Source: Rivularia sp. T60_A2020_040 (GTDB lineage Bacteria > Cyanobacteriota > Cyanobacteriia > Cyanobacteriales > Nostocaceae). From it: 64,000 nucleotides of DNA. The stretch is taken from contig JACYMD010000031.1 of the NCBI GenBank assembly GCA_015272215.1, forward strand, positions 1 to 64,000. The letters run 5' to 3'. Positions within the stretch are counted from its first letter, which is position 1. Each line of letters begins with the position of its first letter. The notes under the pieces are model-generated. The model saw only the letters and a list, made by a program, of their open reading frames with translations. It had not been told where the DNA came from and ran no database searches. This document shows positions 46,200 to 59,116 of the stretch, piece by piece. Made by a program: the position numbers and the translations under genes.

Positions 46200-46432
46200 A
46201 GAGTTAGGAGTGAGGAGTGAGGAGTGAGGAGTGAGGAGTGAGAAGTGAGGAGTGAGAAGTTAAGAGTTAGGAGTTAGGAGTTAAGGTAGTAAGCATATTA
46301 ATAGATTATTGTTCAATGCCAACTGTCAACTGTCAACTGTCAACTGCCAACTGTCAACTGTCAACTGTCAACTGTCAACTGTCAACTGTCAACTGCCAAC
46401 TGTCAACTGTCAACTGTCAACTGTCAACTCTT
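46200..46432. repeat. Long repeat tract: GTGAGGA units then about 13 TGTCAAC heptamers
   Basis: GAGTGAGGAGTGAGGAGTGA repeats (46200-46290) are followed by AACTGTC/AACTGCC heptamers (46319-46430) that reach the stop codon of the LRV gene on the minus strand. It is the longest heptamer tract in the window. Confidence 0.92.
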
Positions 46433-48688
46433 CGCGGCTGCACGAACAATTCGATTAGCATCACCAGTTAAAGCAGCACGAATTTCAGGCGGAGTGTGGG
46501 GATTTTTGGCGATGGCGTATCTCTCTAACCAAGATGAGGAATGAATATTCTCTGCTAATATTTCCTTTGGTGTTGAAGGATGTAGAAAAACGAGTAAGCG
46601 GGTGAATGTGGGAGTTGTGGAGGTGACACAATCTGCTAATACTTGAGTGATTCTCTGGGGAAAGCGATTTATTAAAGCTTTGATTGCTGCTTGTTTAATT
46701 TGATTATCTGCTTTTCCTAAAATTGCTAATTGTTCGAGAATATTTAAAGATGTTTTGGGATGAGAAGCAACTGCGATCGCAATTATATCGCAATTATCTA
46801 GTGCTAATAATTCTAGTAAGCTACTGGGAGTATTGGGGTTTTCTGCTACACCTAGACGCACCATACTAATCTTATCTTCTGCAAGTTGTTTAAGCAGATG
46901 TTTATCTGTGTTGGGATGACGTGCAACCCCTTGACGAATGACTACCCATTGACTGTGAGAAAGCTGATTAAGAATATCTGGAGATAAATTTGGATTTTTA
47001 AGAGTTTCAAGCTGTTCTAAGACGCTTTTAGAAGCATAAGGATTATTTATCGCTGCTTCTCGAACTGTTCGATGTTTATCTTGAATCAATTGTACAAGGG
47101 TTGTGAGGGGAGTTTTGAGATTTTTGGCGACTATAGTACGAACTTCCCAACGATGATGTTTGGCTAATTCTGCGAGTGTTGTGCTAGAAGCGTTGCGATG
47201 ACGTGCTACAGCAGCGCAAATTTTTAAATCGGAAGTTTGTACTAAACATTGTAAAGTACTATCGGGGGTTTTGGAGTTGCCAGAAAGGTTAGTTAGTGCG
47301 GTTTCCAAAATCGAATTGTTTTCTTTCTCAACGAGTTTTTCTAAAACATGAATGGGAGTATTGGGGTGTTGTGCAACTCTTTGACGAGTATCGTAATTAG
47401 TACTATCTGCCATCGCTGTTAATAAATTGGGGTCGTAAACAGCGTATACTGGCATAATTGGGATACCTTGAGCGCGTGCCGTATTTATATAATCGTATAT
47501 TGTATTTTTTTGTAGATTGAAAGGAATTTGTGTCGGATTATTCGGATGAACTGCGACAATTTTACTTATCCAAACATCGTTATCTGTTGCCAATTTTTCT
47601 AATGCTGCGACGGTAGAATTAAGATTCAGGGCTACAGCTTTACGTACCATAACATCTTCATCTTTGGCTAACTCGAATAATACATCCCCAGGAGTGCTAG
47701 AGTGAGCGGCAATAGCCAAACGAATCCGCATCCATTGACTGGTGGAAAGTTGTCTGAGAATTTCTTCAGAAATCAGCGGATTTTCGGTTAGTTCTAATTG
47801 GATTTGAAACTGTTGGTGTAAACTCAGGGGTGTGCGGGGATGATAAGCGACTGCTTCCCGTACTGTATCACTAATATCTCCCATTAACTGTTCCACAATA
47901 TTTATGGGAGTATGGGGATTTTGAGCAACCATTGCCCTTACTTTACTATAACTATCCGTCGCTAATTTTGCTAAAATCTGCTCGTTGGTGTTGAAATTTT
48001 CGGCAATATATAAACGTACTTCAGCATCAAGAGTTTCTAACAGATATTCCGGTACAGCACCAATCGACCATAAATAAATCGAAGATTGACGTTCCCGTGG
48101 TAAATTGGTAGATTGCATTGCCATGATTGCAGCTTTATCCCATCCCTGCTGCATTTCTCCCGCTAAAGTTATGTGTAACTGTGCAGCTTCAGCTACTTCT
48201 GTATTTTCTACCTGAGTTAATGAGAGTAAAGCTGTTTGCGGCGTTTTGGGATGCATGGCGATCGCTAATAACACTTCTACATCACGATGACTGGTTGCTA
48301 ATTCCAGAAATTGAGGTGATATACAATCAAGTTTTAACAAAGCTTGTAAAGTCATTAGGGGAATTTCCAGGATGAAATTTGGATTTTCTAATAATAATAA
48401 AGAAAACACCGGATTTTCTAACAACTGCTGGGGAAATTCCGCTGCTAATTTCAATAAAATTTCTGTTGGTGTATTAGGATTACCCGCTACATTTTCTCGA
48501 ATAATGTTATCAGAACTATTACTTAAATCAAACAATAAATCCGGAGCCGCATTGGCATTTTTGGCTACAATTCGTGTTAATTCAATATCAATTCCAGCTA
48601 ACTCTTGTAATCGTAATGATGAAGTTTTCTCGCTCGCTGCTTGTTGCCGAAGTTTAGATAAATTCGGTTCTGGAGAACGATTAGCCAT
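46424..48688 (-). CDS. Leucine-rich-repeat-variant (LRV) protein, 754 aa
   Basis: A soluble all-helical repeat protein. Units of about 24 residues recur throughout: VAxHPNTPxxxLxxLAxDxxxxVR (for example VAQNPHTPINIVEQLMGD, VARHPNTDKHLLKQLAED, VAENPNTPSSLLELLALD). This is the LRV pattern. The Azotobacter LRV protein has an N-terminal iron-sulfur cluster; here no cysteine cluster is seen. LRV proteins form curved scaffolds for binding partners. The N-terminal 120 residues (FPQQLLENPVFSLLLLENPNF) are closely similar to the LRV protein at 54081-55868, so the two are paralogues. It lies downstream of the DUF2201 gene on the same strand, with the restriction pair between. Confidence 0.87.
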   Translation of the reverse strand: MANRSPEPNLSKLRQQAASEKTSSLRLQELAGIDIELTRIVAKNANAAPDLLFDLSNSSDNIIRENVAGNPNTPTEILLKLAAEFPQQLLENPVFSLLLLENPNFILEIPLMTLQALLKLDCISPQFLELATSHRDVEVLLAIAMHPKTPQTALLSLTQVENTEVAEAAQLHITLAGEMQQGWDKAAIMAMQSTNLPRERQSSIYLWSIGAVPEYLLETLDAEVRLYIAENFNTNEQILAKLATDSYSKVRAMVAQNPHTPINIVEQLMGDISDTVREAVAYHPRTPLSLHQQFQIQLELTENPLISEEILRQLSTSQWMRIRLAIAAHSSTPGDVLFELAKDEDVMVRKAVALNLNSTVAALEKLATDNDVWISKIVAVHPNNPTQIPFNLQKNTIYDYINTARAQGIPIMPVYAVYDPNLLTAMADSTNYDTRQRVAQHPNTPIHVLEKLVEKENNSILETALTNLSGNSKTPDSTLQCLVQTSDLKICAAVARHRNASSTTLAELAKHHRWEVRTIVAKNLKTPLTTLVQLIQDKHRTVREAAINNPYASKSVLEQLETLKNPNLSPDILNQLSHSQWVVIRQGVARHPNTDKHLLKQLAEDKISMVRLGVAENPNTPSSLLELLALDNCDIIAIAVASHPKTSLNILEQLAILGKADNQIKQAAIKALINRFPQRITQVLADCVTSTTPTFTRLLVFLHPSTPKEILAENIHSSSWLERYAIAKNPHTPPEIRAALTGDANRIVRAAAKS

Positions 48689-48773
48689 AGCTCATAGTTA
48701 GTTAGTTAGTTAATTAAGTAATTAATTAATTCTACAGATTTGAATGTAGAACTTTTTAACATTAGATATTAAG

Positions 48774-48890
48774 TAAGTAGGTCAAATTACATATAAAACC
48801 TCACCCTGCCGTACTGCTCCCTCTCCTTAATAAGGAGAGGGATTGAGGGTAAGGTTCTTATTTTATATTTAATTACGCCTACCTACTTAC
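48774..48890. mobile_element. Miniature inverted-repeat element (117 bp)
   Basis: Terminal arms of about 40 bases, GTAAGTAGGTCAAATTA at the left and TAATTACGCCTACCTACTTAC at the right, enclose CCTCACCCT/AGGGTAAGG and a central palindrome CCCTCTCCTTAATAAGGAGAGGG. It has no coding capacity. Confidence 0.75.
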
Positions 48891-49299
48891 ACAATTTTTT
48901 CTGAAGTTTACGTTATTAGTCAATAGTAAACTTTACTTTTATAATTTACTAATAAAAAGTTAATAAAAGTAATCTAAACAACATATTAATCACTAAGAAT
49001 TATCTAAATCTTCTCTTTTATTCGGTTTGGTTTCAGTAGCGATACCAACTAAATTAATTGTAAAAATGGCTATACCTTTACAAATTAATGCTAAATATCG
49101 ATACTTCAATTTTGACATCCGTAATTACAGATTCAACGAATATTACAAAATTTAATCACAAAAATCACAGGGATGTGTATAATGAATAACTCGTTTCACC
49201 AGCTTTATCGAAAAAATAAGTTGAATTTGTATCGCTTTAAGCAAAAGTATGGTACTAGTGAACTAAAATAAATTTGTGATATTTGTACAGGTATAGTTA
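48891..49299. other. AT-rich gap before the GATC methylase gene
   Basis: About 410 bases, roughly 70% AT, without repeats of the kinds listed. No gene is visible. It should hold the promoter of the restriction-modification pair. Confidence 0.5.
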
Positions 49300-50241
49300 A
49301 TGGTTTCAACTGTTCCACATAAGTTTGATTATGAAGTAGCACCAAAGCCTTTTTTGAAATGGGCTGGAGGAAAAACTCAGTTAATCAAACAAATAAGTAA
49401 ATTTTTGCCTTTGGGGTTAAATAACGGTTCAATAAAAAAATATGTAGAACCATTTATAGGAGGTGGTGCGTTATTTTTTTGGATAGCATATAATTATCCG
49501 GTAAAAGAGTTATTTATCTCCGATATCAATGTTGATTTAATTTTGGCATATAAAACTATTCAATGTAATATAGATGATTTAATTGAACTTTTGTCAGATA
49601 TTGAAAATAAATATTTATCATTAAATAATCATCAAAGGGCTGAATATTTTTATCACGTAAGAAATAAATTTAATCAGCAAAGAAACCAGATAGATTTAGT
49701 TGAATATAATTCCGATTGGGTAGAAAGGACAGCCCAAATGATATTTTTAAATAAAACTTGTTTTAACGGCTTATTTAGAGTTAATTCTAAAGGAGAATTT
49801 AACGTTCCTGTAGGAAAATACAAAAAACCATCAATATGTAATCAACAAACTTTAAAAACAGTGAATAAAATTATGCAAAGAACAGAAATTATCCAAGGAG
49901 ACTTTAGTAAATGCGAAACATTTATCGATGATACTACTTTAGTATATTTTGACCCACCTTATAAACCGATTAGTAACACATCTAATTTTACTGCTTATTC
50001 GCATCAAATTTTTGATGATTCCGAACAATTAAGATTACACAATTATTTTCAAAAACTAGATAAAAAAGCAGCATTGCTAATGCTGAGTAATTCCGATCCG
50101 AAAAATTATAATATTGACGATGATTTTTTTGAACAGCTTTATAGTGGTTATCGAATAGAAAGAGTCAAAGCATCCCGCTCCATAAATAGTAATTCAGCAA
50201 AACGCAACCCTATCAATGAACTGTTGATTATGAATTATTAG
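49300..50241 (+). CDS. DNA adenine methylase of the Dam/DpnM type (GATC)
   Basis: A 313-aa class-alpha (D12) adenine-N6 methyltransferase. The SAM motif FLKWAGGKTQLI is at about residue 18, YVEPFIGGGALFF at about 47, and the catalytic DPPY in LVYFDPPYKPIS at about 224. This type methylates GATC. The DpnII-like nuclease gene lies 21 bases downstream, so it protects host DNA in a restriction system. The gene is AT-rich and Asn/Ile/Lys-rich compared with carbon and purine genes in the window, a hint of transfer. Confidence 0.9.
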   Translation: MVSTVPHKFDYEVAPKPFLKWAGGKTQLIKQISKFLPLGLNNGSIKKYVEPFIGGGALFFWIAYNYPVKELFISDINVDLILAYKTIQCNIDDLIELLSDIENKYLSLNNHQRAEYFYHVRNKFNQQRNQIDLVEYNSDWVERTAQMIFLNKTCFNGLFRVNSKGEFNVPVGKYKKPSICNQQTLKTVNKIMQRTEIIQGDFSKCETFIDDTTLVYFDPPYKPISNTSNFTAYSHQIFDDSEQLRLHNYFQKLDKKAALLMLSNSDPKNYNIDDDFFEQLYSGYRIERVKASRSINSNSAKRNPINELLIMNY

Positions 50242-50262
50242 TTAGATGGAAACACATCTATC

Positions 50263-51189
50263 ATGAAATTTAATTATTTATTTCAAAAATATTTCAACTG
50301 TGTTGATGAATCAGAAGTTTTTCAATATTTTCAAGATACATTAACAGATTCAATCACTGGATGGGATTATTTTGTTGATTGGACAAAAGTGCTGAATAAG
50401 TTTAAACAAGTAGAAATTTATTTGAATGCATTAAATTATTTAATTGGTAAAGAAGATATCGAAAATGAATTTCGTTATCTTTTACAACAAATGCCGCAAA
50501 TTGTGAATGTAATACCGATTTTAATTGCTTGTCGTACCTTTAATTTTCAGATATTAACTGATTACACAAATAATAATTTTAGTTATAAATCTTTTAATTT
50601 TAAAAATCAAACTATTTTATTTCCAGGAGATATCGATAATATTGTTGAATTTGCCAAAAATATGGGGTTATTAGAACTATTTAAAAATAAAACTCTTAAA
50701 AGTATTCCTGATTACGTTTTGGGTATTGAAGTTGGTTTAGACACAAACGGTAGAAAAAATCGTGGTGGAACAACAATGGAAAATATTGTTGAAAATCTAA
50801 TTACCATCATCTGTGATCAAACTAATTTTCTATTTATTCCCCAAGCAACATCTGACAAAATAAAAAAACAATGGAATATTGATATTCAAGTAGATAAATC
50901 GAGTCGTCGTTTTGATTTTGCGGTTAAAAATCATCATCATCTCTACTTAATAGAAACTAATTTTTATGGTGGAAGTGGTTCCAAATTAAAAGCAACCGCA
51001 GGAGAATATAAAAGTTTATTTGATTTTATATCTAGACAAGGACATAAATTTATTTGGGTAACAGATGGCTTAGGCTGGAAAAGTACTAGTCGTCCTTTAG
51101 AAGAGACTTTTAAACATATTGATTGTACTTTGAATTTAAATATGGTTGTTAGTGGTTTTCTTGAAGAATTAATTACAGAGAATTTTTAA
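50263..51189 (+). CDS. DpnII/MboI-type restriction endonuclease (GATC)
   Basis: A 308-aa type II restriction enzyme. The family signature EVGLDTNGRKNRGGTTMENIVE lies at about 160-181, followed by RRFDFAVKNHHHLYLIETNFYGGSGSK (about 218-245), where Asp and the Glu of the IET strand form the PD-(D/E)XK-like centre. Enzymes of this group cut unmethylated GATC. It follows the Dam-type methylase by 21 bases in one operon and is as AT-rich. It ends 30 bases before a miniature inverted-repeat element. Confidence 0.88.
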   Translation: MKFNYLFQKYFNCVDESEVFQYFQDTLTDSITGWDYFVDWTKVLNKFKQVEIYLNALNYLIGKEDIENEFRYLLQQMPQIVNVIPILIACRTFNFQILTDYTNNNFSYKSFNFKNQTILFPGDIDNIVEFAKNMGLLELFKNKTLKSIPDYVLGIEVGLDTNGRKNRGGTTMENIVENLITIICDQTNFLFIPQATSDKIKKQWNIDIQVDKSSRRFDFAVKNHHHLYLIETNFYGGSGSKLKATAGEYKSLFDFISRQGHKFIWVTDGLGWKSTSRPLEETFKHIDCTLNLNMVVSGFLEELITENF

Positions 51190-51220
51190 GAGGTTAGAGG
51201 TTAGAGGTTAAAGTTATTAA

Positions 51221-51437
51221 GAGGATGTTTTAGAAGTATCCGGCGCTTTTTTATCGCGACTACACAAACAAAACCCAGATGGTGCGTGGGTTTATAATCT
51301 TTAATACGGGTGGTTAGTTAGTCCGCATAGACGGACTTTGGTTGTGTAGTAGCGAAGCGCGAAGCGTGTCCGCAGGACATATTATATTCGCCGGGTATGA
51401 TATTAATTTAGACTTTTCAAACTTTTCAAACATCCTC
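51221..51437. mobile_element. Miniature inverted-repeat element, copy 1 (about 217 bp)
   Basis: The ends GAGGATGTTT and AAACATCCTC form terminal inverted repeats, with TAA on both sides as probable target duplication. Inner parts pair as well: GTATCCGGCG with CGCCGGGTAT. The right end supplies the stop codon of the DUF2201 gene. A related copy is at 52708-52873. Confidence 0.75.
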
Positions 51438-52654
51438 TAAACTGATAGCAATCGTACCGCTTCCCCAAAAGGAAATTCATCTAAGGCTAAACCACCAGGA
51501 GTAACTACCCATAACACTGGTAATTCCGGTAGTATATCCGGGAAAGTACCGTAACCATCTGTTAAATAAACACATACAGCTTGTTGTTGTCCATCCCATG
51601 TTCGAGCGACTTGCTCGAAGAAAGGAACAAAAGATGTCCCACCACCACCTTGAGGTTTTGGTGGCATGGAATTACCGTTGAGTTCATAAGGACCATAAAC
51701 TTCGGCATCAACATAGTAAAACTCGCATTTTATATGGGGGTAAGCACTTAAAATACCCTGCACTTCCGAGAAAAATAATCCCAGTAATTTTGTATCAATC
51801 GAACCGCTAGTATCCAAAGCTAAATAAACGCGAATCGATTCACCTTGCAAGCTTTCGAGATACAACCTACGTCCGATAAAACGGCGGTCAAATCCAGAAA
51901 AGTCAGTAGGGGTTTGTACTAAATATCGCCAAAGATAAGAACGCCAATCAATTTGAGCAGAATTTAAACTTTCTAACTCTCGTTCAATTGCTCCCCCAAG
52001 ATTACCTTTATTTGCAGTACGGGCGACAGTTGCAGCTTGCTGCATCGCATTTTGCCAATGGGCTTCCATTGCGGCTTTTTTTGCTTGGGACATACTATCA
52101 CCATTTTCAGAAGTCGAGGAACTTTCTCCTTTTCCTTCCTGCTCTCCTGCTTCTTGACTTTCTTGGTTATTACCTTCTTGTTGAGAACCACCAGCATCTT
52201 CCGGTGGACTATCGAGTAAATCGGGGTTAGTTAATTGTGGAGCATTATCAGCATCTTGAAGCAGAATTTCATAAACTTCCTCAACGCTTAAATGTTCTAA
52301 TTTAACATCTCTCAAAGTTCCTTTGGGTAATTCAAAACCATGAGTAGCAATCATCCCGTTAATCACGATATCAGCCGCAATATTCCATAATTGAGCATCC
52401 CTAACACTCCGACGAGGTACATGGAGCAACGCTGCGTGTAAAACTTCGTGTAGCAACACTCCATCAAGTTGTTTCGCAGGTAAAGATAATAAAAACTCAA
52501 CATTATAGAAAATATCTTTACCATCAGTAGCCGCTGTTGGTAATTTTTCCGTAGGAATAAAACGAGCAAACATTGCTAGTGTTGCAAAAAACGGTGATTT
52601 TGTTTGCAAACGCAATAAAGACGCGCTAATACTTTTTTGAATATCTTCAGTCAT
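51437..52654 (-). CDS. DUF2201 protein: zincin-like HEXXH domain plus VWA-like domain
   Basis: A 405-aa protein in two parts. Residues 1-150 hold an HEXXH zinc motif (LLHEVLHAALLH, about 68-79) as in metallopeptidases, typical of DUF2201. A Glu/Gln/Gly/Ser-rich linker follows (about 150-195). Residues 260-405 form a VWA-like domain with a MIDAS-type DTSGS (ALDTSGSIDTK) and a later YLTDGYG. Such proteins pair with MoxR AAA ATPases; the MoxR gene is directly upstream on the same strand, separated by a miniature element and repeats. The stop codon lies in the end of another such element. Confidence 0.85.
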   Translation of the reverse strand: MTEDIQKSISASLLRLQTKSPFFATLAMFARFIPTEKLPTAATDGKDIFYNVEFLLSLPAKQLDGVLLHEVLHAALLHVPRRSVRDAQLWNIAADIVINGMIATHGFELPKGTLRDVKLEHLSVEEVYEILLQDADNAPQLTNPDLLDSPPEDAGGSQQEGNNQESQEAGEQEGKGESSSTSENGDSMSQAKKAAMEAHWQNAMQQAATVARTANKGNLGGAIERELESLNSAQIDWRSYLWRYLVQTPTDFSGFDRRFIGRRLYLESLQGESIRVYLALDTSGSIDTKLLGLFFSEVQGILSAYPHIKCEFYYVDAEVYGPYELNGNSMPPKPQGGGGTSFVPFFEQVARTWDGQQQAVCVYLTDGYGTFPDILPELPVLWVVTPGGLALDEFPFGEAVRLLSV

Positions 52655-52707
52655 TTTACAGTTTACAGTTGACAGTTGACACTTGACAGTTAGGAGTTGG
52701 GAGTTGG
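52655..52707. repeat. Heptamer repeats between DUF2201 and the miniature element
   Basis: GTTGACA/GTTGACACTTGACA heptamers followed by GGAGTTGGGAGTTGGGA. A second tract (TTAGGAGTTAGGAG) occupies 52875-52950 on the other side of the element. Confidence 0.85.
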
Positions 52708-52873
52708 GAGGATGTTTTAAAAGTATCTGGCGGTTTAAACCGCTACTACAGAAACAAAGTCCACCTGCGTGGACTAGTTAATTTAGAACCCGCTACCACG
52801 GAGGGTTTTGTTTTTGTAGCCGCGACTTCTAGTCGCCAGGTAAAGTATTAAATTAGACTTTCAAAACATCCTC
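52708..52873. mobile_element. Miniature inverted-repeat element, copy 2 (166 bp)
   Basis: Ends GAGGATGTTTT and AAAACATCCTC; inner arms GTATCTGGCGG and CGCCAGGTAAAGTA; inner palindromes AGTCCACCTGCGTGGACT and CGACTTCTAGTCG. It lies between the MoxR gene and the DUF2201 gene and is related to copy 1 at 51221-51437. Confidence 0.78.
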
Positions 52874-52960
52874 TAAGAGTTAGGAGTTAGGAGTTAGGAG
52901 TTAAGAGTTAGGAGTTAGGAGTTAGGAGTTAAGAGTTATAACCTCTAACCTCTAACCTTT

Positions 52961-53962
52961 CTACGGTTTCTGGGAATCTAGATAATCTTGTAATAATTTC
53001 TTAAATTCGGGATTTTTGCTGAGTAAATTGGCTAAAACTCCCCGCTTACCTTTACTTTCCATGACTCGCGATAAATCTACGGCAAAAAGTCTTACCCATT
53101 CATTGGCTGCAACTTGATTTAACCAATTAAAAGCATTAAGCGCTTGAACAGCATTTTCCGCACGTACTGTTAATCCAACTACCGTTGCATATCTGACGCT
53201 GGGTTCTTTAGGAAATTGAATGGTTTCGCCTTTTCCTTCCAAAATCGCAATTAGATTAGGTAGATTTTCGTACATAGATATGTATGAAGAAAATTCAGTA
53301 GCAGCAGCAGTTCCTACCGCTGGATTAATATTTAATCCGGCACAATGTAAGGCACTTGCCATTACCCAAGAGCGAGGAGAAGCCCAAGCCGGTTGTTGGG
53401 GGTCAATTTTATGTAATAAAGTAGTACGGAAGGAAAGAAAAGCAATTATTTGCTCATGTATACCTTTTTCTAAAGCATAGGCTTTGAAACTTTCAAAATC
53501 CGGTTGTACTTCTACGTGCAAAAACCTATTTGCTAAAGGTGAAGGCATATCGAATACAGCAGCACGGTCTTCTTTACGGTTCCCTGCTGCCCATACAAAC
53601 CAACCATCTGGCACTACGTAGGAGCCTACACAGCGGTCTAAAATTAACTGTTGTGCCACTCCCTGCATTGCCGGAGGAGCCATATTTAACTCATCGAGAA
53701 ACAATACACCTTTACCCTTACGAGGTAGAAATTCTGGTGGAAACCACTTAGAAATACCATCTTCAGCAACCGGCAACCCACGTAAATCAGTAGGTGCTAA
53801 CTGAGACAAACGAACATCTACAAAATCAATCCCACTTTCTCGTGTTAGCTGACTAACAATACTAGATTTACCAATACCCGGAGGTCCCCAAATCATGGTA
53901 CTGATTTGAATATTATTACGAATAAGCTGGTCTAAAAATAATTTGAGTTCGTTGGGAGTCAT
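52961..53962 (-). CDS. MoxR-type AAA ATPase
   Basis: A 333-aa AAA ATPase of the MoxR/AAA_5 group. It has Walker A (WGPPGIGKSSIV, about residue 26), Walker B (GVLFLDELNMAPP, about 86), sensor 1 (WAAGNRKED) and an arginine-finger region (SPLANRFLHVEV). MoxR ATPases act as chaperones with VWA-domain partners, and a VWA-like DUF2201 gene follows. I start at the Met of MTPNELKLF; an earlier in-frame Met would add 13 residues encoded by TTTTGGATTTTAGATT repeats. The LRV gene ends 118 bases upstream on the same strand. Confidence 0.9.
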   Translation of the reverse strand: MTPNELKLFLDQLIRNNIQISTMIWGPPGIGKSSIVSQLTRESGIDFVDVRLSQLAPTDLRGLPVAEDGISKWFPPEFLPRKGKGVLFLDELNMAPPAMQGVAQQLILDRCVGSYVVPDGWFVWAAGNRKEDRAAVFDMPSPLANRFLHVEVQPDFESFKAYALEKGIHEQIIAFLSFRTTLLHKIDPQQPAWASPRSWVMASALHCAGLNINPAVGTAAATEFSSYISMYENLPNLIAILEGKGETIQFPKEPSVRYATVVGLTVRAENAVQALNAFNWLNQVAANEWVRLFAVDLSRVMESKGKRGVLANLLSKNPEFKKLLQDYLDSQKP

Positions 53963-54020
53963 AGAATTTTGGATTTTAGATTTTGGATTTTGGATTGACA
54001 ATATTTAGGAGTTTTTGTAG

Positions 54021-54041
54021 AGACGTAGCACTGCTACGTCT
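54021..54041. terminator. 21-base palindrome, same as at 13267
   Basis: AGACGTAGCA-c-TGCTACGTCT between the LRV gene and the MoxR gene. If it ends transcription it would reduce read-through inside this gene group. Confidence 0.45.
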
Positions 54042-54080
54042 GTTATTGAGTTAGGAGTTATAACCTTTAACCTTTAACCT

Positions 54081-55868
54081 CTAACCTTCTCCCTGACGTT
54101 TTCTTAAAGAACGCTTTGCGGATTTGGCAACAACGGGGTCTTCGTCTTGGGCTAGATGTTCTAAAATTTCTACGGGCGTTTCTCGATGTCTTGCGACAAA
54201 TAACCTTTCGGTTTCCACAACGCTAGTAGAAAATTCTTCTAATAGTTTCTGGCGCAGTTTGGGTGGAGTGTTGGGATGCTGTACTATATGCCAGTCGTAT
54301 CGGAAAAATTGTGTTAGTTGTTCTAATGCTGTAGCGGGAGTACTAGGATTTTGAGCAATAAAGGAACGTAAATGCCAATCCTTAATTAATATCTCCAAAA
54401 CATTTCCGGGTGTTTGAGGATTACTAGCTACAGCTTGACGAACTTCTAATCGCCAATCTTCAGCCAGTTTTTCTAAAACCTGGGGAGGGGTATTAATATT
54501 TTTCGCCACACCATAACGCACATCTTTGGATGTATCTTTGGCAAGTTCTTCTAAAACCTGGGATGGAGTGCGAACGTTCAAGGCTATCCACGGACGAAGT
54601 TCTGGTGAATGTTTCGCCCATTGAACTAAGATTGACATTGGTGCATGGTCGTGCTGTGCTACATATTTGCGAACTGATAAACGTTCGTCTAATGCCAAAC
54701 GCCAAAGCACTTTTTGTAAGGTTGATTCTGGTGTGTTGGGATGACGTGCTAATAACAAGTCGTGAAACGGCGTACTACCCAATATCTCTAATACATAACC
54801 TGGAGTACTACCATTCCTGGCAACAGCTGCCTGGATATCTCCCCGACTATCCATTGCTAATTCTTCAAGAATTTTTGGAGGAGTATTAGGGTTTTCTGCA
54901 ACAAACTGGCGCAGTTGCAAATCCTTTGCTGCTTCTACTAGTAAATATGCTGGTGTGTTAGGATGTCTTGCTACCATCTGCCGCACCCGTTCATGGGGAT
55001 GTTCTGCCATTTCCTCCAACCAACTACTAGGGATGTGAGGATTCTGAGGCAGAAAATTCATCGTATGCACCCGATAATCCATTGCCAATTCGATGATCAA
55101 ATGCTTGGTTAAATCAGAACGTTTGGCGATCGCACTTTTGACTTTGGTTAATGGTACCTTAATCAACTTTTCTAGAACACTTAGGGGTGTATTGGGATTT
55201 TTAGCAATACTTGTTTCAATAGCTACTCTTAAATTCCAATTTGGTTCTGGATTATCGACTAAAATTTCCAAAACTTTCACAGGAATTTTGGGATAAGTAG
55301 CAAGATACAAGCGAACGGAACTTGCACCATATTCTGCTAATTTTTCCAAAACCCTTTGAGTTATATCTTTGCGTTGTGCAATACATAAACCCAATTCGGG
55401 ATCGTACCGACTTTTAATCGCTAACTGTTCTAAAATGTGTTCTGAAGCTTGTTGATGTTTGGCTACAGCTTCCAATACCAAAGAATTGGAATGCATTGCA
55501 GCACAAGCTAAAAACCATTCCGGAGCTTCATCCTGTTTTAATAGCTTTAATAAAGACCAATATGATATATCTGTTGCTAAATTGGGATTTTCCAGCATCA
55601 ACAGGGATAACACCGGATTAGAGAAAAATGAAGCCGGAAAATCTCCCGCCAATTTCAGCAGTACATCAGTCGGTGAATTGGGATTTTTCGTGATATTTTC
55701 GCGAGTAGCCTTATCTTCACTCGATGCTAACTCCCGCAATAAATCCGGTTCAGCACTGGGATTTGCTGCCACCAATCTTCCTAGTTCTATACTTTCATAA
55801 GCAAGAACCCTGAGCTTATCGGGTGGAGTAGCTTCGTCAGCGGCCAGTTGTTCTGGGGTTGGGTACAT
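54081..55868 (-). CDS. Leucine-rich-repeat-variant (LRV) protein, 595 aa
   Basis: A second LRV-repeat protein, paralogous to that at 46424-48688. Repeats of about 24 residues run through it (VARHPNTPAYLLVEAAKD, VAENPNTPPKILEELAMD, VAKNINTPPQVLEKLAED, VASNPQTPGNVLEILIKD). The N-terminal part LLKLAGDFPASFFSNPVLSLLMLENPNL is shared with the paralogue. No cysteine cluster or signal peptide is seen. It is the first gene of the LRV-MoxR-DUF2201 run on the minus strand. A role as target-binding or scaffold partner of the MoxR/VWA pair is inferred from position only. Confidence 0.87.
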   Translation of the reverse strand: MYPTPEQLAADEATPPDKLRVLAYESIELGRLVAANPSAEPDLLRELASSEDKATRENITKNPNSPTDVLLKLAGDFPASFFSNPVLSLLMLENPNLATDISYWSLLKLLKQDEAPEWFLACAAMHSNSLVLEAVAKHQQASEHILEQLAIKSRYDPELGLCIAQRKDITQRVLEKLAEYGASSVRLYLATYPKIPVKVLEILVDNPEPNWNLRVAIETSIAKNPNTPLSVLEKLIKVPLTKVKSAIAKRSDLTKHLIIELAMDYRVHTMNFLPQNPHIPSSWLEEMAEHPHERVRQMVARHPNTPAYLLVEAAKDLQLRQFVAENPNTPPKILEELAMDSRGDIQAAVARNGSTPGYVLEILGSTPFHDLLLARHPNTPESTLQKVLWRLALDERLSVRKYVAQHDHAPMSILVQWAKHSPELRPWIALNVRTPSQVLEELAKDTSKDVRYGVAKNINTPPQVLEKLAEDWRLEVRQAVASNPQTPGNVLEILIKDWHLRSFIAQNPSTPATALEQLTQFFRYDWHIVQHPNTPPKLRQKLLEEFSTSVVETERLFVARHRETPVEILEHLAQDEDPVVAKSAKRSLRKRQGEG

Positions 55869-56398: not shown

Positions 56399-56596
56399 GT
56401 GCCATTAATCAAAATACCAAAACATTATCTTGTATCTCAGGATGAAGATTCAATTACAGTAGATGTACCAGAGTCAATGCTCTTGCATTGGAAAAGAGAT
56501 TACGAAAAAATTACTAAAGCCAAAGGAATTTTAAAGGATAAGAAAGAAGCAATTCTTACTCATTTAGACACTCTTCGCCAGGAATGGGATGAATGA
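56399..56596 (+). CDS. Antitoxin of a PIN toxin pair
   Basis: A 65-aa charged protein (MPLIKIPKHYLVSQDEDSITVDVPESMLLHW...). I use the GTG at 56399 because GGGAG lies eight bases upstream; a TTG five codons earlier overlaps that ribosome-binding site. The C-terminal part is a charged helix likely to wrap the toxin. I do not recognise the DNA-binding family. The stop overlaps the toxin start by four bases (ATGA), the usual layout of such pairs. Confidence 0.7.
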   Translation: MPLIKIPKHYLVSQDEDSITVDVPESMLLHWKRDYEKITKAKGILKDKKEAILTHLDTLRQEWDE

Positions 56597-56976
56597 GATA
56601 TCTGTATGATACAAATATTTTTATCTACTATCTTGCTGGTGAGTCAATAGTTGATTCGTTGTTTGCAGAAGATTTTCTGAATTTACATGACATTTTAACT
56701 TTGCCGATTGTCCGTATTGAGTTGCTTAGTTTTTCTGGCTTATCAGAGGATGAGGAGCAGTCGATCAAAGATTTACTATCGCAGTTTAGCTCGGTTCCAT
56801 TGTCGCGAGAAATTGAAGAGCAGACAATCGAGTTAAAACGAAGATATAAAATTAAGCTCCCTGATGCAATTATTGCGGCAACTGCACTAAATCAAGATGC
56901 ATTTTTAGTTACAAGAAATGTTCGTGATTTTAAAGGAATTGCTGAACTCAAAGTTGAAAATCCGTTTTCAGATTAG
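56593..56976 (+). CDS. PIN-domain toxin (VapC-like RNase)
   Basis: A 127-aa PIN-domain protein. The active-site acids are visible: Asp in RYLYDTNIFIYYL (about 6), Glu in VRIELLSF (about 41) and Asp in IKLPDAIIAATAL (about 97), and TRNVRDFKGI near the end. It should cut RNA when the antitoxin is lost. It is read from the same transcript as the antitoxin. The pair differs in sequence from the pair at 24773-25482, so it is not a recent duplicate. Confidence 0.87.
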   Translation: MRYLYDTNIFIYYLAGESIVDSLFAEDFLNLHDILTLPIVRIELLSFSGLSEDEEQSIKDLLSQFSSVPLSREIEEQTIELKRRYKIKLPDAIIAATALNQDAFLVTRNVRDFKGIAELKVENPFSD

Positions 56977-57088: not shown

Positions 57089-59116
57089 TTACTCGATTTC
57101 TAAATAAGCTTTCAAAGCTTCATTTACCAAATCCGTCATCGGTTTACCCTGACTTTCAGAAGCTTGCTTGAGCTTGTCGTAAATATCATCTCTAACACTG
57201 ATTCGATGTCTTAATTTCTTCGCAATCGTAGTATTATTAATCGCAACTACTTGACCATTGCTTTCTTCTGTAATCGGTGCCGTAGTCGAATCTGCCATTG
57301 CTTCAACCAAACCATCACGCTCGTCTGATATTCCAGAAGCAACTGTTTTTACTTCGTATTTGGCTGCATATTCGCGAATCGCGTCAAAGCCAACTCTATG
57401 ACAAAAGTCACCAAAGCTTTCCTGAGTTTCACGGGATTCTTTAAAATAAACAAACATTGGTTCTAACTGCGTTTCCAAATCATCAACGTGCAGCCTTTCC
57501 ATGTAAGGTAACGCTAACCGAGTTTGATTTGGCGAACCTCCCAACCACAATTGATAAGCATCGGGAGCGCTACCGACAAAACCTAACTCTGCCATGTAGG
57601 GACGAGCGCAACCGTTAGGACAACCAGTCATCCTTACCACAAAATGCTCATTTTGTAAACCTATCTTATTCAAAAGTGTGCGAATCCGGTCTAAAATACC
57701 GGGAATTACTCGTTCCGATTCGGCTATCGCTAATCCGCAGGTAGGAAATGCGGGACAAGCCATTGCGTAACGCACCAATGGTTCAATTTTTTCTGGGTCG
57801 CTATTGATACCGTGTTTTTGGAGAATTTCTTCAATAGCTGGTTTATTTTCGGGTGCGATGTCGAGGAATATTAAATTATGGTTAGCGGTAAGACGAATAT
57901 CTAAATTGAATTGCTCGACAATTTTGCGGAGTGCGGTTTTGAGTTGAAAAGAACCTTCGTCTTTGACTCTACCATTTTCGATTGAAATACCTAAAAATAG
58001 TTTGCCATCACCTTGTTCGTTCCAACCGAGATAGTCGTAATATTTAAATTCCGGTAAAGGTTTGAAAGGTTCTACAGCCTTACCAAAATATTCCTCAACC
58101 TGGGAACGGAATTTTTCCACACCCCAATCGTTGATCAAATATTTTAAACGAGCGTGTCGTCTTTGAGCGCGATCGCCATAATCTCTTTGAGTAGCGACAA
58201 TCGCTTTGACTAAATCGTAAACATCTGATTTTGAGACATAACAAATCTCATCAGCTTTCCGAGCAAAAGTTTCTTCTTTGTTGTGAGTTCTTCCCAAACC
58301 ACCACCAGCAAAAACATTGAATCCTTGTAATTGGGAATTTTCGTCGGTAATTACTACCAACGATAAATCCTGAGTATAAAGGTCAATACTATTATCACCA
58401 GGTACCGTGACGCTAATTTTAAACTTGCGCGGCATATAGTGGCTACCGTAAATCGGTTCTTCAGGATTATCGTGAAAAACAGTTCCCGTACCATTACGTT
58501 GACGAGCGGCTTTTATTTCCGGACTTTCTTCAGCGGTTATGGCTTTTTCACCATCAAGCCAAATTTCATAATAAGCACCAGTTTGGGGTGTAAGTAAATC
58601 AGCAATTTTATCGGCGTATTCGACAGCGTATTGATATTCTGGTTTATTTTTAAAAGGAGCAGCAGGTGCCATGACATTGCGATTCAAGTCTCCACAAGCA
58701 CCCAAAGTGGAACCCATGTTTTTAACAATCGCGGCAATTGTCGATTTGAGATTTTTCTTTAAAATTCCATGCAACTGGAAACCTTGACGAGTAGTTACCC
58801 GCATCGTGTGGTTTCCATAATCATCCGAAAGTTTGTCTAAAGTTAAATACAATTGCGGTGGAATAAAACCCCCCGGATTCCGGGTTCGCAACATCATTTG
58901 ATAATCTTTTTCTTGTCCTTTAACGCGATTATCGCGATTATCTTGCTGATAAGAACCGTGAAACTTGAGAATTTGTATGGCTTCTTCACTAAAGTGAGTA
59001 GTATCTTCGAGAATCTCAGTTGCTACAGGTTCGCGTAAAAAATTGCTGCGTTCTTTGATTCCTTCAACTTTGGATAGCTTACGGATTGTGGTTTCGGGAG
59101 GAGCAGACTTAACCAT
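57089..59116 (-). CDS. sir: Ferredoxin-sulfite reductase with C-terminal RHH-like tail
   Basis: A 675-aa enzyme that reduces sulfite to sulfide with six electrons from ferredoxin. It has two sulfite/nitrite-reductase repeats: [19 protein letters not shown] and TRQGFQLHG in the first half, [19 protein letters not shown] and [11 protein letters not shown] in the second. The siroheme-[4Fe-4S] cysteines lie in [17 protein letters not shown] and [15 protein letters not shown]. The last 40 residues ([38 protein letters not shown]) look like a ribbon-helix-helix (CopG/Arc) fold joined by a Ser/Thr-rich linker, which common Sir proteins of about 635 residues lack. It stands alone on the minus strand. 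Confidence 0.92.

Follow-up and report, generated by a model that had tools for sequence, protein, structure and literature searches.

LRV repeat proteins as a conserved companion of a MoxR-type ATPase and a DUF2201 zincin-VWA protein

In the cyanobacterium Rivularia sp. T60_A2020_040, two LRV repeat proteins are encoded together with a MoxR-like AAA+ ATPase and a DUF2201 protein on a stretch of 64,000 nucleotides (positions 1 to 64,000 of contig JACYMD010000031.1), which is referred to as the window. All four open reading frames (ORFs) are intact and located on the minus strand: LRV1 (54081-55868, 595 amino acids), the ATPase (52961-53962, 333 amino acids from the ATG at 53962), the DUF2201 protein (51437-52654, 405 amino acids) and LRV2 (46424-48688, 754 amino acids). 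The ATPase has an alternative TTG start at 54001, the ORF then spanning 52961-54001, with the ATG being the likelier start. LRV1 matches the Pfam models PF01816 (1.1e-47) and PF25591 (4.6e-33) and its paralogue LRV2 matches PF01816 (3.8e-55), with PF01816 scores of 157.6 and 181 bits, respectively, versus a gathering cut-off of 21.6, which makes both members of the LRV family. The DUF2201 protein unites two domains that each pass their cut-off, DUF2201_N (PF13203, 5.5e-38, 131.6 versus 23.2 bits) and DUF2201 (PF09967, 2.4e-18, 66.9 versus 26.4 bits), classed by Pfam as a putative metallopeptidase and as VWA-like, and it possesses a HEXXH motif at residues 69-73 (the start of HEVLHAALLH), a DTSGS motif at residues 281-285 and the MIDAS residues D281, S283, S285, T340 and D366. 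The original prediction, made from the letters of the window, had described the first three genes as running in one direction from 55868 to 51437 and a second, paralogous LRV gene downstream on the same strand; the intact ORFs, the Pfam assignments and the common N-terminal module of the two LRV proteins agree with both statements. In the whole genome (6.0 Mb, 139 contigs), the five matches to the LRV family (E <=1e-3) all fall inside LRV1 and LRV2.

The MoxR label of the ATPase stands in part. AAA (PF00004) and AAA_5 (PF07728) match above the Pfam cut-off, Midasin is the top sequence match in the PDB (1.6e-9) and the relative on the Synechocystis plasmid pSYSA is annotated as a MoxR family ATPase, but the MoxR model AAA_3 (PF07726) scores 22.0 bits versus a curated cut-off of 27; a helix-2 insert is a further mark of the MoxR clade (PMC7159879). 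Among the relatives with letters at the respective positions of the Walker A (GPPGIGKSS) and Walker B (LFLDELN) motifs, K32 is kept in 67/67 and D90 in 66/67 sequences, and H69, H73, H78, D281, S283 and S285 are invariant in 85/85 DUF2201 sequences. In a predicted model of the DUF2201 protein (mean predicted local distance difference test score (pLDDT) of 78.5), the predicted VWA domain (residues 272-405) superimposes on solved VWA domains with a Z score of 13.0 and a root-mean-square deviation of 2.5 Å over 133 residues, while the N-terminal half is predicted to form short strands followed by a long helix (residues 60-75) that holds the HEXXH motif. Such a motif inside a helix after strands is what zincins would show. 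No solved sequence relative of the DUF2201 protein was found in the PDB at E 0.1, and fold searches with the model return VWA domains.

The neighbourhood recurs in other genomes and thereby withstands the refutation named in the original prediction, the lack of a conserved neighbourhood. Of 146 cyanobacterial genomes sampled first, nine match the DUF2201 protein, seven near-completely (the window's genome included) and two as distant relatives of about 600 amino acids; in six of the seven, a relative of LRV1 is encoded within a few kilobases on that contig. A scan of genome contigs with the alignment of the seven sequences gave 165 relatives, the best 80 loci of which were retained as a set that includes close relatives and several short contigs and is hence non-independent. 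LRV genes are present in DUF2201 flanks of at most 10 kb at 47/80 loci in six phyla, with 33 loci in Cyanobacteriota and 14 in Chloroflexota, Deinococcota, Armatimonadota, Verrucomicrobiota and Pseudomonadota. The nearest LRV gene is at most 1.5 kb away from MoxR or DUF2201 in 43 of these 47 loci, and at least one LRV gene shares the strand of MoxR/DUF2201 in 44, the other three being Nostoc loci (L070, L071 and L073) with all LRV genes on the opposite strand. The most frequent order is LRV-MoxR-DUF2201 on one strand; in Crocosphaera and Cyanothece it is MoxR, LRV, DUF2201. With L027, L028, L029 and L031 added and L026 excluded as a copy of L113, 51 LRV loci are available, and at the 42 where a same-strand LRV gene can be measured it ends at most 150 bp upstream of MoxR in 26, with a gap of at most 20 bp in 14 and a 4-bp overlap in seven of them, in Cyanobacteriota, Chloroflexota and Deinococcota. 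More than one LRV ORF (two to seven) is found at 24 of the 51 loci, with seven consecutive ones in L029, and the repeat number varies.

Common to the linked LRV proteins is an N-terminal module with the profile consensus NPNTPTEVLLKLAEEFPQEVLSNPVLPLLLLENPNFLKEL. The signature profile is defined on LRV1, where the segment runs from residue 62 to about 101, and the module match of LRV2 at 48278-48655 (E 2.7e-47) concerns a segment that is itself a row of the profile. Of the 108 linked LRV ORFs, some of which are fragments (ten with fewer than 200 amino acids), 96 possess the full signature, versus two of 22 unlinked LRV ORFs taken from 19 stretches in the same sample of phyla (Fisher test, 2.5e-13, uncorrected for relatedness); four of the 12 linked ORFs without the full signature (L093_2, L110_2, L111_2 and L141_2) start at a contig edge. 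As the profile was built on linked members, a held-out test was made, in which a cyanobacterial profile detects 13 of 16 linked LRV proteins of other phyla, one weakly at 10.3 bits and the rest at 31.7-63.5 bits, the misses being L110_2, L111_2 and L141_2 with their contig-edge starts. A regular expression for the signature was abandoned, as it matched none of the printed unlinked ORFs and the profile found two. Upon a check of all ORFs, the 19 stretches (7.8-16 kb) around the unlinked LRV genes contain no MoxR or DUF2201 match; the absence of DUF2201 is partly due to the way the stretches were selected, that of MoxR is not.

LRV proteins of considerable size occur outside such loci. One ORF of 1564 amino acids with 51 profile repeat matches (L166:7265-11959) is found in a 19-kb stretch without MoxR or DUF2201 match, and a plasmid of Deinococcus psychrotolerans (L201:9886-18789) encodes LRV proteins of 1206 and 1317 amino acids on a stretch that equally lacks such matches. 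On the plasmid pMESIL01 of Allomeiothermus silvanus (L203:9863-13447), an LRV gene without the full signature adjoins distant relatives of DUF2201 (76 bits) and MoxR (34 bits), perhaps an independent pairing.

The association extends to presence and absence. Among 386 cyanobacterial genomes, nine encode a close DUF2201 relative (E 1e-30) and 13 the module, the latter being called for matches with E <=1e-17 that extend to at least position 120 of the model, a rule fixed after the rows had been seen. The module is found in seven of the nine genomes with DUF2201 versus six of the 377 without (Fisher test, 2.5e-10), and this co-occurrence together with the module shared by the linked proteins bears out the earlier proposal of a connection between the LRV proteins and the MoxR/DUF2201 pair. 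The two genomes with DUF2201 and no module (G109 and G187) have a MoxR frame that is also shortened. Six of the seven genomes with both components have them linked; the seventh (G174, taken to be Calothrix NIES-3974) is split, with an LRV-MoxR pair at about 5.5 Mb and a solitary DUF2201 gene at 1.65 Mb. For the 33 loci without linked LRV gene, a search of the 32 genomes available recovered the module elsewhere in 16. In six of these, which represent three lineages (NIES-3974 with a relative, Hyella, and Chamaesiphon with three genomes), the module adjoins MoxR away from DUF2201. Of the split-cluster genomes, all save NIES-3974 are drafts, in which a DUF2201 gene outside the same flanks is all that is seen. 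In G394 and G414, the module elsewhere is part of a second complete locus, while in two further Chamaesiphon genomes (G395 and G398) the module is present and its position relative to MoxR is left undecided by the contig or the MoxR search. Hyella has 15 matches over 12 contigs, so LRV proteins are not confined to the cluster.

That the co-location is accidental, or a mere matter of shared ancestry in a few cyanobacteria, is very improbable. Many of the 80 loci are closely related, and the LRV label takes only 12 changes on a DUF2201 tree with 82 rows. Against this, shuffled labels take 26 changes, well-supported branches force at least 10, the loci belong to six phyla and the adjacency of LRV and MoxR survives the splitting of the cluster. 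There is good support for a single system made up of LRV, MoxR and DUF2201.

On balance, it seems probable that the three components work as one unit, in which the LRV proteins are the dedicated third component, dock via their module and bring clients or signals. The engine would consist of the MoxR-like ATPase, which is probably ring-shaped, together with the zincin-VWA protein; the MIDAS site of the VWA domain would capture a carboxylate of a peptide or partner, ATP hydrolysis would pull or twist what has been captured and the zincin site would probably cut it. The LRV protein may dock on this engine via the N-terminal module, most likely on MoxR, because LRV stays with MoxR when DUF2201 leaves. 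The C-terminal variable solenoid, as an adaptor or sensor, would pick what reaches the VWA and zincin sites, and several LRV proteins could serve one engine in one genome. We infer docking, direction of action, client selection, proteolysis and biological role alike; selection of clients by the LRV proteins fits the combination of constant N-terminal module, variable repeats and tandem paralogues.

Several observations weigh against this reading. A linked LRV gene is lacking at 33/80 loci, so that it can hardly be a necessity everywhere, and in 16 of the 32 genomes searched the module is absent at E 1e-10. Hence, some lineages (Chloroflexota for the most part) possess the engine but no LRV, as do phages; no LRV1 relative was found at E 1e-5 among 50,697 phage records. 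Conversely, six of the 386 genomes have the module without a close DUF2201 relative, any LRV match at E 1e-6 is found in as many as 31 of the 386, and in six of the genomes with LRV-free loci (G388, G392, G403, G406, G407 and G417) the module lies apart from MoxR and DUF2201 alike. With respect to catalysis, E70 of the HEXXH motif is conserved in 81/85 DUF2201 sequences and replaced by Q in four, all from Herpetosiphonaceae (L134, L135, L137 and L142), which makes protease activity unlikely there and proteolysis not universal. Finally, the LRV protein could equally well be a client or effector as an adaptor.

The latter alternative, in which MoxR and DUF2201 hold, cut or release the LRV protein instead of being guided by it, is rather doubtful. 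The constant module could be a tag that the engine reads, and the pair in related ternary systems has been proposed to restructure a complex with the third component (PMC7159879). The signature, however, is situated within a confidently predicted folded solenoid and not in a disordered tail (block means of pLDDT 83-92 for residues 61-110). LRV1 as a whole is predicted as a single continuous alpha-solenoid (AlphaFold2, mean pLDDT 93.1), and among the 50 Foldseek matches listed HEAT/ARM-type solenoids prevail with template modelling scores of at most 0.30; the solenoid arrangement of the model is a common one. In 18 pairs of close relatives, the ratio of non-synonymous to synonymous substitution rates (dN/dS) spans 0-0.09 (ATPase), 0.04-0.11 (DUF2201) and 0.10-0.33 (LRV proteins), with the LRV proteins showing the higher value in 18/18 pairs, in line with the favoured reading. 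The LRV proteins are the least constrained part, still under purifying selection, and fast evolution was ruled out at the level of the whole gene by a dN/dS of at most 0.33.

In the window, the gap of about 306 bp between MoxR and DUF2201 (52655-52960) consists mostly of repeats present at dozens of other sites of the genome. A 4.4-kb query of the window gave 72 genome matches, and those other than self lie in or at the edge of the gaps 52649-52960 and 53956-54088; the repeats include tandem taactcc units. Between DUF2201 and LRV2, a DpnII-type methyltransferase and endonuclease (49300-51189, plus strand; MethyltransfD12 4.2e-60, DpnII 1.6e-97 in Pfam) is probably an insertion outside the system. 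With the repeats in the one gap and this pair in the other, the sequence gives no proof of co-transcription in the window strain. Upstream of LRV1 and on the opposite strand, 56593-56976 encodes a PIN-domain protein (PF01850) that we take to be VapC-like. A 675-amino-acid protein of the nitrite/sulphite reductase family (57089-59116) weakly matches a ribbon-helix-helix model at its C-terminus (PF12651, 7.5e-4, below the cut-off), a possible DNA-binding tail as judged from sequence.

The reductase family protein bears on the question whether the set is an assembly or metal-insertion chaperone such as NorQ-NorD or CbbQ-CbbO, with the LRV protein as a scaffold for one housekeeping target complex. 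Studied MoxR-VWA pairs are described as working in this way (PMC9976466; PMC13036017; PMC7159879), and LRV1 orthologues are conserved along their length and under purifying selection. A reductase family gene is found near the set in L065 and L169 in addition to the window (a third match, L034, is the window stretch); confined to these loci, it was dismissed as a shared neighbour. Upon clustering of the neighbours, no non-core family is common to more than 15 loci, with pentapeptide repeats (connected through long multidomain proteins) and ABC transporters as the largest groups. Several LRV paralogues per locus are, moreover, a poor fit to one fixed target, and such a chaperone is unlikely. A small conserved protein is encoded soon after DUF2201 on the opposite strand in five Chloroflexota loci (L120, L128, L129, L131 and L133); the single member tested (L129:11202-11624) has no Pfam match.

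A different context is offered by Synechocystis PCC 6803, whose plasmid pSYSA encodes a signature LRV protein (SGL_RS00715), DUF2201 (SGL_RS00745) and MoxR (SGL_RS00750) within about 8.4 kb, with DUF2201 and MoxR on the strand opposite to LRV. The set is located beside type I-D cas genes and near toxin-antitoxin-type genes and a DUF262 protein (PADLOC Orf5, 5.3e-172) on a plasmid described as defence-specialised (PMC9978351). A table of toxin-antitoxin genes puts sll7030 and sll7031 at this place (PMC4963859), and the MoxR gene, by gene order, is probably sll7029, which declines together with its antisense RNA early in iron starvation (PMC3516471).

These neighbours favour an anti-phage ternary conflict system, in which LRV solenoids diversified by tandem duplication sense invaders and trigger cleavage of a target by MoxR and the zincin-VWA protein, with an abortive or signalling outcome. 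The patchy presence of close DUF2201 relatives points in the same direction, as do the accessory gene of Ktedonobacteria described below and the third component that related ternary systems also have 5' of MoxR-vWA (PMC8195603). Yet the neighbours at large show no excess of defence genes. From proteins of 100-900 amino acids in the LRV set, 148 neighbours belonging to 37 loci were sampled out of 202 (241 before nine close-relative loci were removed), and for the LRV-free loci all 136 left of 164 were taken at 28 loci after removal of five; PADLOC at E <=1e-10 gives 89 versus 90 families, respectively, counted as members per family and not as distinct proteins with any match, and Pfam likewise gives no excess. 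Among the families listed, no PADLOC family has more than three neighbour members. Beyond pSYSA and the DpnII pair of the window's clade, the sampled neighbours show no defence islands, which speaks against defence. No model of PADLOC-DB 2.0.0 matches LRV1, LRV2 or DUF2201 at E 0.01, the ATPase has weak AAA matches (IetA at 0.0045 and 0.0077) and the dN/dS of the LRV proteins is low. The suggestion of the original prediction that the set acts in stress response or defence is thus not sustained by the chromosomal neighbours and the dN/dS values, for all the defence character of pSYSA; an anti-phage system is a tentative possibility, defence being one among several candidate roles.

Accessory genes of two kinds accompany the core. 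At five cyanobacterial loci that lack LRV and belong to one clade, DUF2201 is directly followed on the same strand by a pentapeptide-repeat gene (L095, L096, L101 and L108 by Pfam, L124 by sequence similarity); L100 carries both LRV and pentapeptide genes. Three Nostoc loci have an opposite-strand pentapeptide gene between DUF2201 and LRV (L070:11256-13519, L071:11289-13598 and L073:2564-4870), in two frames in L070 and with WD40 repeats (Pfam) in L071. Near the core, 9/80 loci encode an SDR protein whose N-terminus has four invariant cysteines in a presumably zinc-ribbon-like arrangement. In the Ktedonobacteria L116, L117, L118 and L132 (e.g. L118:4958-6721), a PD-(D/E)XK/DUF6602-like and SDR gene lies upstream of LRV-MoxR-DUF2201 on the same strand; the two proteins tested match PD-(D/E)XK weakly (5.8e-9 and 1.7e-9) and DUF6602 at or below the cut-off. 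SDR is present in 13/50 engine-bearing genomes, three of which were known SDR holders beforehand, but in cyanobacteria it occurs in 11/386 genomes and in none of the nine with DUF2201, a further point against the anti-phage reading. As SDR is found without the engine, a core fourth part was ruled out and SDR is treated as accessory. In L216 (5833-8199) and L217 (7324-9669), a pentapeptide-like gene, recognized by its ADL motif count, precedes the same SDR gene, and the listed ORFs include neither MoxR nor DUF2201; pentapeptide and SDR may be an independent pair that joins the core elsewhere. A machine resembling immune receptors, with diversified LRV sensors, a constant docking module, a MoxR and zincin-VWA protease, exchangeable solenoids (pentapeptide in one cyanobacterial clade) and a nuclease-SDR effector in Ktedonobacteria, would combine these parts and is on the whole unlikely.

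With respect to known systems, a MoxR AAA+ protein with a metallopeptidase-vWA cochaperone has already been described in group 2.2 jumbo phages, where a role in virion assembly has been proposed (PMC7824862). This pair possesses the same two engine parts, MoxR and a VWA domain fused to an N-terminal metallopeptidase, and differs in its proposed role and in the failure to find an LRV1 relative in phage records. DUF2201 relatives occur in 316 records of an annotated phage collection, while a scan of viral contigs with DUF2201 gave no relative. Closest in composition are the ternary systems of MoxR, VWA and a third component, with VMAP, iSTAND, FtsH and beta-propeller (PMC7159879) and iSTAND2 and TERNS3 (PMC8195603), which occur in multicellular cyanobacteria, chloroflexi and others. 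For published MoxR-VWA pairs, a common scheme has been put forward whereby VWA captures a peptide and ATPase action alters it (PMC7159879). The set described here shares the ternary architecture, with the third component linked at 47/80 loci. However, the third component is by Pfam an LRV protein and not VMAP, iSTAND, FtsH or beta-propeller-vWA; in the main text of both papers the term 'LRV' is absent, and none of the six kinds described there has an LRV third component. Moreover, DUF2201 has a zincin-like domain before VWA, whereas the effector of the ternary systems is typically C-terminal to VWA (PMC7159879). The DUF2201 protein has no C-terminal effector, as it ends with VWA (Pfam 277-402, model 272-405 of 405 residues).

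NorQ-NorD, CbbQ-CbbO and RavA-ViaA likewise combine MoxR and VWA in ATP-driven remodelling, and we know of no zincin domain or LRV partner in them. The only solved sequence relative of LRV1 (PDB 1lrv, E 0.00038), which we take to be the Azotobacter vinelandii LRV protein, has LRV repeats like LRV1; the A. vinelandii protein carries a 4Fe-4S domain and has, to our knowledge, no link to MoxR. If the favoured reading is right, the set represents a MoxR-VWA system with client choice placed in separate, duplicable repeat proteins, so that target selection by a MoxR machine becomes directly testable, and the pSYSA copy brings it within reach in a standard strain. DUF2201 is mentioned in four open-licence PubMed Central papers. 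As the original prediction had supposed for the LRV partnership, no description of the combination of LRV, MoxR and DUF2201 was found in papers of this collection, and the LRV set, undescribed in the papers searched, is a real, conserved and new form of MoxR-VWA systems.

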